64,000 nucleotides of DNA from Chryseobacterium taklimakanense. GTDB taxonomy: Bacteria > Bacteroidota > Bacteroidia > Flavobacteriales > Weeksellaceae. Numbering within the stretch: position 1 is the first letter of the stretch; every line of letters starts with the position of its first letter. The translations under genes were made by a program, and so were the position numbers. Below the pieces are notes generated by a model that saw only the letters and a list, made by a program, of their open reading frames with translations, was not told the origin of the DNA and searched no databases. Of the stretch, positions 17,297-26,180 are shown piece by piece. The stretch lies in NCBI RefSeq assembly GCF_900187185.1, contig NZ_LT906465.1, positions 1,736,001 to 1,800,000 of the forward strand. The letters are read 5' to 3'.

Positions 17297-17541
17297 TCCG
17301 AAAAATTTAAGTAAAAATAAAGAATTGGAGTGAATTCACGAAGGTTTTTCTTGTTCCAATTATTAAAAGATTTGTGAATAATCTTTGGCTTTTTTGCAGA
17401 ATTGTGTCAAATATCACATTCCTTCTCATCCAGATTCTACATTTTCAATTAAAAACTTTCGTAACTTTAGTTTTCCAAAAATTCAAATGCACACCATTTC
17501 TTTTTTGCAGCTCAAGAAAATAATTTAAAATAATACATACT

Positions 17542-19668
17542 ATGAGTGCAACAACCAAAGATCTACGGAATGTGGTTTTGCTGGGTCACTCCGACAGCGG
17601 TAAAACTACGCTTATAGAGACGATGTTATACGAGGGCGGGGCCATCAGGCGCCGCGGTTCTGTGGAAGGGCAGAACATGGTCGGCGATTTTACGGATATT
17701 GAGCACGAAAAAGGCAAAACCATTTTCTCGCACCAGATGTTCGTGAACTGGAAAAACAACAAGATCAATATTATAGACACGCCGGGATTCGACGATTTTG
17801 TAGGCGAAGTGGTTTCTTCCCTCAAGGTTGCAGATACGGCGCTCATTGTTTTAAACGCCGCTGCGGGCGTGGAAGTGGGTACCGAACTGGTGTGGGAATA
17901 TGTTGAAAAATACAAAACTCCTGCAATTTTTGTCATCAACCAGATGGATCATCCTAAAGCAGATTTCGAGACCACTTTAACTCAGGCAAAAGAACGTTTT
18001 GGCAGCAAACTCGTGCCGGTTCAGTATCCTTTAAATTCCGGGGAAGGCTTCAACAAAATTGTGGATGCTTTGCGGATGGTGATGTACGAGTTCCCTAAAG
18101 ACGGCGGAAAACCGGAGAAAAAACCCATTCCTGAAAGTGAAATGGCGCGCGCCAATGAGATGCACAACGCTTTGGTGGAAATCGCTGCAGAAAACGAGGA
18201 AGGTTTAATGGAAAAATATTTCGAAGAAGGTCATCTTTCCGAAGAAGAACTCGCCAAAGGAATTACCATTGCGCTCGCCCACCAGCAGTTTTTCCCTGTT
18301 TTTGTGGCTTCCGGACTGAAAGATATGGGCAGCGGAAGAATTATGGGCTTTATCGACGATATCGCACCTTCGCCGATGGACCGGCCAAAACGCGTGATGG
18401 AAGACGGCAGCGAAGTGGCTTACGACCCGAATGACAAGACCACGATTTTCATTTATAAAACAACTTCTGAGCCGCAGGTTGGTCTGCTTTCTTATTTTAA
18501 AGTATTGAGCGGAACCCTGAAGCCGGGCGATGAACTCATTAACGCGGATAATGGTGAAATTGAGCGCATTTCGCAGTTATTTGTAGCCGAAGGTAAAGAC
18601 AGAACTCCCGTTAATCAACTGGAAGCCGGAGATTTGGGCGTTACCGTAAAACTAAAATCCGCACACACCAATAATACTTTAAATGCTAGAGGGTTGAACC
18701 GGAAAGTCCGTCCGATGGAGTTCCCTGAAAGCCGCGTGAGAAAAGCGGTTTCTGCCGAATCTTCTGCTGAAACCGAGAAACTTTTCGCTGCTTTAAACAA
18801 AATTAAAGAAGAAGACCCAACGCTGAAAGTGGATATAGACCACGATACGCACGAAGCCATTCTTGGCGGGCAGGGGCAACTGCACATCGATTTGGTAAAA
18901 CAGCGTCTGGAAAAAGAATTCGGTGTGAAAATGCAGATGAAAAACCCAAAAGTCTCATACCGCGAGACGATCACCGGAAAAGCAGACGCCGATTACCGGC
19001 ACAAAAAACAGTCGGGAGGTGCCGGCCAGTTTGGCGAAATTCACATGCGTGTTGAAAATTTCTACGAAGGCATGGAAGACCCGCAAGACTTCAATATCCG
19101 CCAGAAAGAGATTGAGGATTTGCCTTGGGGCGGAAAATTGGCCTTTTATTGGTGTATCGTGGGTGGCGCCATCGATTCCAGATATATCGGCGCCATCAAA
19201 AAAGGAATTATGTCGCAGATGAAAAACGGCTCTTTGACAGGTTCACCTTGCCAAAATATCCGCGTTTCTGTTTACGACGGCAAAATGCACAGTGTGGACA
19301 GTAACGATATTTCTTTCCAGTTGGCAGCATCAGGAGCATTTAAAGAAGCCTTCCAAAACGCAAAGCCGCAGTTGCTTGAGCCAATGTATCACGTAGAAAT
19401 CCTTTGTCCGAACGATGCTACTGGCGACGTGATGGGCGATTTGCAGGCGCGCCGCGCTGTTATTTCCGGAATGGATTCCGAAGGGCATTATCAGAAAATC
19501 ATCGCTGAGGTTCCTTTGGCTGAAATGGATGATTATGGTTCCACTCTTCGCCAAATTACCGGTGGGAAAGCGAAATTCTCGATGAGTTTTTCCGATTATA
19601 AACTTGTTCCGCCAAATGTACAGCAGGATTTGGTGAAAAAATACACTGCGGAAAGGGTGGACTCGTAA
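17542..19668 (+). CDS. Elongation factor G paralogue with degenerate GTPase motifs
   Basis: A 708-aa protein with the EF-G domain order: G domain, domain II (KTTSEPQVGLLSYFKVLSGTLK region), domain III, domain IV with the GGAGQFGEIHMRVE block, and domain V. The P-loop GHSDSGKT (residues 15-22) is intact. Other G motifs deviate: HEKGKT replaces ERGIT (55-60), DTPGFDDF replaces DTPGHVDF so the catalytic His is Phe83, and NQMD replaces NKMD (133-136). It stands alone, with no rpsL/rpsG/tuf neighbours, so it is probably a second EF-G. It may resemble the Bacteroides EF-G2 reported to work without GTPase activity. TAACTTTA (17462-17469) is a one-mismatch -7 candidate in its 245-bp upstream region. 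Confidence 0.85.
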   Translation: MSATTKDLRNVVLLGHSDSGKTTLIETMLYEGGAIRRRGSVEGQNMVGDFTDIEHEKGKTIFSHQMFVNWKNNKINIIDTPGFDDFVGEVVSSLKVADTALIVLNAAAGVEVGTELVWEYVEKYKTPAIFVINQMDHPKADFETTLTQAKERFGSKLVPVQYPLNSGEGFNKIVDALRMVMYEFPKDGGKPEKKPIPESEMARANEMHNALVEIAAENEEGLMEKYFEEGHLSEEELAKGITIALAHQQFFPVFVASGLKDMGSGRIMGFIDDIAPSPMDRPKRVMEDGSEVAYDPNDKTTIFIYKTTSEPQVGLLSYFKVLSGTLKPGDELINADNGEIERISQLFVAEGKDRTPVNQLEAGDLGVTVKLKSAHTNNTLNARGLNRKVRPMEFPESRVRKAVSAESSAETEKLFAALNKIKEEDPTLKVDIDHDTHEAILGGQGQLHIDLVKQRLEKEFGVKMQMKNPKVSYRETITGKADADYRHKKQSGGAGQFGEIHMRVENFYEGMEDPQDFNIRQKEIEDLPWGGKLAFYWCIVGGAIDSRYIGAIKKGIMSQMKNGSLTGSPCQNIRVSVYDGKMHSVDSNDISFQLAASGAFKEAFQNAKPQLLEPMYHVEILCPNDATGDVMGDLQARRAVISGMDSEGHYQKIIAEVPLAEMDDYGSTLRQITGGKAKFSMSFSDYKLVPPNVQQDLVKKYTAERVDS

Positions 19669-19757: not shown

Positions 19758-20141
19758 ATGAAAAAACTTGAAACACGGGAAGATATTGAACTTTTGGTCA
19801 ATACTTTTTACCAAAAGGTTCAGAAAGATGAGACCATTGGTTTTTTCTTCAATGATGTGGCCAAGGTAAACTGGAATGAGCATCTGTCAAAAATGTACAA
19901 ATTTTGGGAAACGCTGCTTTTCGGACAGATTTCTTACAAAGGAAATCCTATGGCTGCCCATTTTCCAATCAATGAAATGGTTGCGATGGAAAAATACCAC
20001 TTTGAGCACTGGCTAAAACTGTGGACAGAGACCGTGGAGGAACTCTTCACAGGGGTCAAAGCTGATATGGCGGTGTATAAGGCCAATAACATCTCCCAGC
20101 TTATGGCATATAAAATGGAGATGGCGCGACGCCTTTCCTGA
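19758..20141 (+). CDS. Group III truncated hemoglobin
   Basis: A small haem-binding 2-over-2 globin of 127 aa. It contains the segment FYQKVQKDETIGFFFNDV near the N terminus, the WNEHLSKMYKFWETLLFG region, and the proximal-His block HFEHWLKLW, where His81 is the likely F8 ligand. Group III members are little studied; proposed roles are in oxygen or NO chemistry or redox reactions. No partner gene is adjacent. The start is fixed by a promoter element ending five bases upstream. Confidence 0.88.
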   Translation: MKKLETREDIELLVNTFYQKVQKDETIGFFFNDVAKVNWNEHLSKMYKFWETLLFGQISYKGNPMAAHFPINEMVAMEKYHFEHWLKLWTETVEELFTGVKADMAVYKANNISQLMAYKMEMARRLS

Positions 20142-24383: not shown

Positions 24384-26180
24384 CTAATCATTCAATTTTA
24401 AAACAGCCATAAATGCTGATTGCGGCACTTCAACGCGGCCGATTTGCTTCATCTTTTTCTTACCTTCTTTCTGTTTTTCAAGAAGTTTACGCTTCCGAGA
24501 GATATCACCACCATAACATTTTGCTGTTACGTCTTTCCGTAGTGCTTTGATCGTTTCCCTGGCAATGACTTTTGTTCCCAGGGCTGCCTGCACTGCTATG
24601 TCAAACTGCTGTCTTGGAATCAGCTCACGGAGTTTTTCGCACATTTTTTTACCGATGTGGTAAGCATTGCTTTCGTGGATTAATGAAGAAAGGGCATCGA
24701 CCATATCGCCATTAATCAGGATATCCATTTTCACAAGTTTCGATGCGCGGAAACCTATTGGATGGTAATCAAATGAAGCGTAACCTTTGGAAATGGATTT
24801 TAAACGGTCATAAAAATCAAAGACCACTTCCGCCAAAGGCATATTGAACACCAATTCCACACGGTCTGAGGTTAAATAGGACTGGTTCACAATTTCTCCC
24901 CTTTTCTCGATACAAAGAGTCATCACCGCACCTACAAAATCAGATTTCGTGATAATGGAAGCTTTGATATAGGGCTCTTCAACCCGGTCGAGGATTGACG
25001 GATCCATCATTTCAGAGGGGTTGTTGATCAGAATTGGCGTTTCGGGTTCTTTTTTGGAGTATCCAATATACGATACGTTCGGAACGGTTGTGATGACGTT
25101 CATATCAAACTCGCGGTCCAGACGCTCCTGCACAATTTCCATGTGAAGCATTCCCAAAAATCCGCATCGGAAACCGAATCCTAAAGCTGCAGAACTTTCA
25201 GCTTCAAAAACCAGTGAAGCATCGTTCAGTCTTAATTTTTCAAGAGATGTTCTTAATTCTTCAAAATCTTCGGATTCCACAGGATAAATTCCAGCAAATA
25301 CCATCGGTTTTACTTCCTCAAAACCTTCGATTGCTTTCGGTGCAGGGTTATCGGTGGAGGTGATGGTGTCGCCAACTTTTACTTCGCGGGCATCTTTAAT
25401 TCCTGAAATTATATAGCCTACGTCACCACATTTAATTTCCTGTTTCGGCGCCTGTTTCAGCTTCAAAGTTCCAACTTCATCAGCATCGTACGTTTTGTCC
25501 GTCGCCATGAATTTTACTTTCTGGCCTTTTTTAATGCTGCCGTTCACCACCTTAAAATAAGCCTCAATTCCACGGAACGGATTAAATACGGAATCAAAAA
25601 TCAGTGCCTGCAGGGGCCCGTTTTCATCACCTTGTGGTGCAGGAATTCGCTCTACAACCTGCTCTAAAAGATTATGAACACCTTCGCCCGTTTTCCCCGA
25701 GACACGCAGAACATCGTCTGGTGAACACCCCAAAAGATTCACAATTTCATCCGTAACCTCCTCAGGATTTGCAGAAGGCAGGTCGATTTTGTTTAAGATC
25801 GGAATGATTTCCAGGTCGTTTTCAAGCGCCAGATAAAGATTAGAAATGGTCTGTGCCTGTATACTTTGCGCAGCATCAACAATCAAGAGCGCTCCTTCGC
25901 AGGCAGCGATTGAACGGGAAACTTCATAGGAAAAATCCACGTGTCCCGGTGTATCAATGAGGTTTAGAACGTATTTCTCACCTTTATATTCATAATCCAT
26001 CTGGATCGCGTGCGACTTGATTGTGATGCCACGCTCTCTTTCCAGGTCCATATCGTCCAGGGTCTGGGTCTGCAGTTCCCTTTGCGTCACCGTGTTGGTG
26101 TACTCCAGAAGCCTGTCTGCAAGCGTAGATTTACCATGGTCGATATGCGCGATTATGCAGAAATTCCTTATGTTTTTCAT
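24384..26180 (-). CDS. lepA: Elongation factor 4 (LepA)
   Basis: Ribosome-associated GTPase of 598 aa, the normal length. All G motifs are canonical: AHIDHGKST (11-19), ERGITIKS near 49-56, DTPGHVDF with catalytic His80, and NKIDLP. The LepA-specific C-terminal domain is present with [21 protein letters not shown] near the end. It is transcribed away from mreB. Its -7 element TAAATTTG on the minus strand is at 26208-26201, and the structured repeat downstream provides a terminator. Confidence 0.98.

Follow-up and report, generated by a model that had tools for sequence, protein, structure and literature searches.

An EF-G2 gene of Chryseobacterium taklimakanense in the clade of Bacteroides EF-G2, with a putative FNR-type operator upstream

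The EF-G2 gene and its genomic setting

The window analysed here (a stretch of DNA of 64,000 nucleotides) carries a fusA2-like gene on its plus strand. The open reading frame call coincides exactly with positions 17542–19668; it starts with ATG and gives a complete frame of 708 amino acids, in which Pfam recognizes all five EF-G domains (GTP_EFTU, EF-G_D2, EFG_III, EFG_IV and EFG_C). The features of the gene and of its product are as follows:

17542..19668, +, fusA2-like gene for an EF-G2 (EFG II) of 708 amino acids (ORF, domains, profiles and tree)
17584..17607, +, P-loop (G1) GHSDSGKT, residues 15–22; G15, G20 and K21 are invariant in a 47-member alignment
17698..17727, +, switch I IEHEKGKTIF, residues 53–62; the RGITI motif is lost and Thr60 is kept (alignment)
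17776..17799, +, switch II (G3) DTPGFDDF, starting at Asp79; the codon of Phe83 (17788–17790) is at the position of the catalytic His (alignment)
17938..17949, +, G4 motif NQMD, which is NKMD in EF-G1 (alignment)
19000..19029, +, domain IV tip loop 1 HKKQSGGAGQ, residues 487–496, almost all invariant in EF-G2s (47-member alignment)
19060..19119, +, domain IV insert, approximately residues 507–526, 20 amino acids longer than in EF-G1 (alignment)
19288..19302, +, domain IV tip loop 2 H583-S-V-D-S, with His583 invariant (alignment)

The initial annotation had read a Phe in place of the catalytic His and had noted deviations in switch I and in G4. All of these are borne out in the complete frame (DTPGFDDF from Asp79, IEHEKGKTIF and NQMD, respectively); Thr60 and Asp79 are retained. 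Named relatives of the gene include those of Chryseobacterium, Kaistella, Cloacibacterium and several Flavobacterium species. Of the 34 named relatives that were fetched, 33 have DTPGFDDF (the last one, a Balneolales MAG, has Thr at the His position) and dN/dS between close relatives is 0.02–0.06; Phe83 is therefore real, and neither a chance event nor an artefact. The gene is under strong purifying selection, and more than 30 relatives have complete open EF-G2 frames.

As previously noted, the gene lies outside any ribosomal operon. No conserved operon was found around it among the fetched loci, and a divergent gene for a Gate-domain transporter next to EF-G2 is common to some relatives only. 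Directly downstream and in the same orientation lies a small gene for a bacterial-type globin (19758–20141), which was not found beside EF-G2 in any fetched relative locus.

The genome consists of one contig of 2.76 Mb. The initial annotation had proposed a search for a second, canonical fusA; there is one such EF-G (G000:C1:1962705-1964810), it has DTPGHVDF and it is part of a str operon with the order rpsL-rpsG-fusA-rpsJ, so the window protein is not the only EF-G of this genome. The two proteins have the five-domain architecture and the domain IV tips in common, but they are only 32% identical and EF-G1 is without the insert. LepA, encoded in the window at 24384–26180 (minus strand), keeps the His as well as NKID, and the His is likewise present in all further translational GTPases seen in this genome (EF-Tu, TypA, RF3, IF-2 and CysN-like proteins, names that were assigned by reading the sequences); the loss is thus not a genome-wide feature, in agreement with the initial annotation. 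A pair of IS3-type transposase genes (L048:682-2081) is located a few kb upstream of the str operon.

Family assignment and inheritance

The best NCBIfam match of the window protein is EFG2_Bacteroid (NF058620), with 948.5 bits and thus under the curated cut-off of 1000; the EF-G2 sequence of B. thetaiotaomicron (B. theta) scores 1377.5 bits with the same model. The model of the elongation factor G subfamily NF009381 (PRK12740.1-5) was passed (888.3 bits for a curated cut-off of 583), and that of canonical EF-G1 (TIGR00484) was not reached (553.7 bits for a cut-off of 659.4; the window protein has Phe83 in place of His). The best sequence match in the PDB is 7uvp/8dmf (E = 3.4e-229). An AlphaFold2 model (pLDDT 90) gave 8dmf as the top Foldseek match, with a TM-score of 0.91. 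The VIA-align ranking put other ribosome-bound EF-Gs first, with 8dmf at Z = 48.6, an order which may reflect domain arrangement. The chain of 7uvp is labelled as tetracycline resistance protein TetQ and has the same sequence as 8dmf, which is titled B. thetaiotaomicron EF-G2; the EFG2_Bacteroid score of 1377.5 bits and its absence from the Tet(Q) matches likewise speak for EF-G2 and not TetQ.

In a 91-row tree, EF-G1 and EF-G2 are separated with 100% SH-aLRT support, a long-branch warning concerning the root between the two and not the placement of the window protein. The insert-bearing EF-G2s form a clade of 44 rows (100%), and inside it a subclade of 35 rows (99%) contains both the window protein and B. 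theta EF-G2; a tree built for the insert clade under a mixture model again puts the two together (98%). Across the two trees this subclade has 33–35 rows. The phylogeny including Bacteroides EF-G2 for which the initial annotation had called therefore places both in the same clade. Features described for EFG II are the loss of RGITI in G2, a Leu ending the P-loop and a Lys-rich loop 1 of domain IV (Margus et al. 2011, PMC3150367). The window protein has all three (IEHEKGKTIF, GHSDSGKTTL and HKKQ), except that the Ser of G2 in EFG II is a Thr here. On these sequence grounds, we assign the gene to the EFG II subfamily and to the insert-bearing clade of Bacteroidota that contains B. theta EF-G2.

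With B. theta EF-G2 (BT2167, fusA2; 7uvp, 8dmf), the window protein shares 48% identity along its whole length, the lack of the catalytic His (Ser in B. theta), NQxD, a domain IV insert at the same place and a gene separate from the EF-G of the str operon; it differs in having Phe instead of Ser, Thr60 instead of Ser in switch I and an insert shorter by 9 residues. Other EFG II proteins, including T. thermophilus EF-G-2 (1wdt), have in common with it the loss of RGITI, the Gly and Leu changes of the P-loop (GHSDSGKTTL), a non-His residue and the HKKQ loop, whereas EF-G2s outside the insert clade are without the domain IV insert.

The distribution of EF-G2 is patchy, since it was found in only 25 of 296 genomes of Flavobacteriales; on an evolutionary scale it is therefore dispensable. 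Most Bacteroidota outside the host's class have two EF-G-type matches. Monophyly was rejected by AU tests both for the Flavobacterium-type EF-G2s (P = 3e-60) and for the EF-G2s of the order (P = 2e-93), although in the 91-row tree the Flavobacterium-type genomes concerned have EF-G1s that group together. Vertical inheritance across the whole order is thereby ruled out, and either horizontal transfer or an old paralogy with differential loss is required; we prefer the former. Three genomes of Bacteroidota (G101, G192 and G247; loci L169-L171, L173 and L174) have two EF-G1-type genes besides EF-G2, one of them long-branched.

The upstream region and the shared palindrome

Comparison of the regions upstream of EF-G2 genes brought out two elements:

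17405..17416, +, CRP/FNR-type palindrome TGTCAAATATCA, with the extended form TGTGTCAAATATCACA at 17403–17418 (comparison of upstream regions)
17462..17469, +, promoter −7-type box TAACTTTA (TAnnTTTA, Bacteroidota type), inside the invariant GTAACTTTA

GTAACTTTA is invariant upstream of EF-G2 in 17 Weeksellaceae loci, in which the palindrome is also present, and 10 Flavobacterium EF-G2 loci have TGAYAAATATCA-like sites upstream. With one mismatch at most, the palindrome occurs in 26 of 29 upstream regions, which include related and non-independent loci; in 300 shuffles the number averaged 4.6 and never exceeded 11. Measured from its centre, the palindrome lies 29, 40, 50–51 or 61 bp from the box, depending on the group, and the spacing thus varies in steps of one helical turn; the palindromes would lie at about −41, −51, −62 and −72 if the box is assumed to start at −11. 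Such helically phased spacing is typical of CRP/FNR-type activator sites, and the palindrome is regarded here as a putative operator. A site of the BT4338/Cur type (TATGTTnTAnAACATA) is absent upstream of the window gene, the best match having 5 mismatches (chance level); in this respect the gene differs from B. theta fusA2, with the FNR-type palindrome instead. The palindrome suggests control linked to respiration or energy rather than control by BT4338/Cur. A genome-wide scan for the palindrome (2 mismatches at most) gave 163 matches versus 82 for the reversed control; because the best other matches were mostly inside genes, no regulon was called.

There are two genes of the CRP/FNR family in the genome. 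An FNR-like regulator gene (G000:C1:1462615-1463325, locus L189, minus strand) is divergent to a heavy-metal ATPase gene which, from its sequence, reads as ccoI-like (cbb3-oxidase-type copper ATPase). The intergenic region between the two contains TGACAAATATCA, a site that also occurs in some of the Flavobacterium fusA2 promoters. In 14 of 16 genomes (L189 and its relatives L190-L204), the regulator is accompanied by a perfect TGANAAATNTCA match. This FNR-like protein may bind the fusA2 palindrome, and an FNR-type operator in common would provide a simple link between respiration and the choice of elongation factor. The conserved operator-like site common with a respiration-linked regulator goes beyond the initial annotation, as does the extent of the His loss described below.

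The histidine position, the domain IV insert and the proposed function

From the loss of the catalytic His, the initial annotation had suggested a possible counterpart of the Bacteroides EF-G2 reported to support translation without GTPase activity; wider sampling does not support the argument from the His. His is absent from all 130 EF-G2 rows, which are related and not independent sequences (Phe in 53, Leu in 39, Tyr in 31, Ser in 5 and Thr in 2), and present in all 30 EF-G1 loci; Tyr is found there in the EFG II proteins of Thermus, Ilyobacter and Paraburkholderia. As far as sampled, the missing His is a trait of the whole EF-G2 subfamily; hence, it is not what distinguishes the window protein, and it is weak evidence on GTPase activity. 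Nor would it prove by itself that the activity is lost, because T. thermophilus EF-G-2 (Tyr) is reported to hydrolyse GTP in a ribosome-dependent manner, though its activity with poly(U) is low (PMC3832671; see also PMC3150367), and because the H91A variant of E. coli EF-G still hydrolyses GTP (ribosome-stimulated hydrolysis is about 7-fold slower and phosphate release far slower; PMC4532990). The proposal that the window protein is a counterpart of Bacteroides EF-G2 is not supported by the His but is supported by the common clade, the insert region and the best Foldseek match, 8dmf.

The insert common with Bacteroides EF-G2 is more telling than the loss of His. Between GQFGE and WGGKL, 29 residues are aligned in the window protein, 9 in EF-G1 and 38 in B. 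theta EF-G2; the last is 29 amino acids longer than EF-G1 at the place where the window protein is 20 longer. Between these anchors, full-length EF-G2s belonging to the insert clade invariably have 29 or 38 residues, and those outside the clade have 9. The flavobacterial insert would be a shorter form of the B. theta region. Han et al. reportedly ascribed (EMBO J, 2023) the missing GTPase activity of B. theta EF-G2 to a region of 26 residues that EF-G1 does not have, which we take from the alignment to be this insert region. At the tips of domain IV, the 47-member alignment shows no variation in H487-K-K-Q, GG, GQ or H583-x-VDS, a pattern that fits a working translocase.

We consider it rather probable that the window protein is a slow, GTP-form translocase with little or no hydrolysis, the counterpart of Bacteroides fusA2. 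Domains I–V, the P-loop, the guanine-binding Asn/Asp and the domain IV tips are intact, and a canonical EF-G1 is encoded alongside. The protein would bind GTP and the ribosome and promote slow tRNA–mRNA translocation; as in the reports on B. theta EF-G2, the binding of its GTP form would suffice to drive this step. The insert (20 versus 29 extra residues) and the loss of His would suppress hydrolysis and help the factor to leave the ribosome. A CRP/FNR-family activator at the upstream palindrome would raise transcription under respiratory or energy limitation, so that EF-G2 would take over as growth slows. A stress-induced, slow, low-GTP translocase is then its most likely identity. Carbon limitation in B. 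theta raises fusA2 mRNA 238-fold, mostly via BT4338, while fusA falls, and fusA2 is required for gut colonization (PMC6989115); papers that cite Han et al. report that EF-G2 enables GTP-independent translation (PMC10294740; PMC12775393). We infer the lack of hydrolysis, the translocation activity and the expression condition of the window protein; use when GTP is scarce, as the initial annotation had suggested, may likewise be supposed, and the promoter evidence fits energy-linked control. Several points go against this reading: an EFG2_Bacteroid score below the cut-off, the shorter insert, Thr60 as in hydrolysing EF-Gs, the GTPase of Thermus EF-G-2, the absent BT4338 site and the presence of EF-G2 in so few genomes of the order.

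The main rival, which we hold to be less probable, is a protein of the Thermus type whose GTP hydrolysis on the ribosome is slowed but not lost and which has a backup role in translocation instead of a role in GTP-free translation. The Thermus protein itself and E. coli H91A, in which phosphate release is hit harder than hydrolysis, speak for it, as do the retained Thr60 and Asp79; however, the window protein shares its insert region, which insert-free EF-G2s lack, with a B. theta protein for which absence of GTPase is reported, and ribosome-dependent GTPase was not seen for M. smegmatis EF-G2 (PMC3832671). Some EF-G paralogues, such as mitochondrial EF-G2 and the Tet-type protection proteins, have roles in recycling, protection or idling. 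That the window protein chiefly serves such a role instead of elongation seems improbable: Borrelia EF-G2 has one (PMC3832671) and the window protein is weakly similar to Tet protection (tet_protect) models, but its scores are far under the cut-offs of these models, the domain IV residues needed for translocation are invariant and support of translocation is reported for B. theta EF-G2, the closest of its relatives that have been studied. A decaying duplicate of no important function, which the lost catalytic residue and the patchy occurrence in the order might suggest, is scarcely credible and is contradicted by the selection test (dN/dS 0.02–0.06), by the complete frames and by the conserved promoter architecture.

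A broader version of the preferred reading, a low-GTP translocase, is speculative and rather doubtful: the loss of His would go back to the common ancestor of all EF-G2s, and translocation without hydrolysis would be a general bacterial back-up, not something peculiar to gut Bacteroides, which in flavobacteria would have been wired to the FNR-like regulator beside the cbb3-type copper ATPase gene as a GTP-saving switch for when respiratory energy falls. Should the mechanism extend beyond Bacteroides, GTP-free translocation would be a widespread means by which bacteria make protein under energy stress. The natural inserts of 0, 20 and 29 residues, together with the subfamily-wide loss of His, offer a set with which the effects of the insert and of the His on GTPase activity could be separated.
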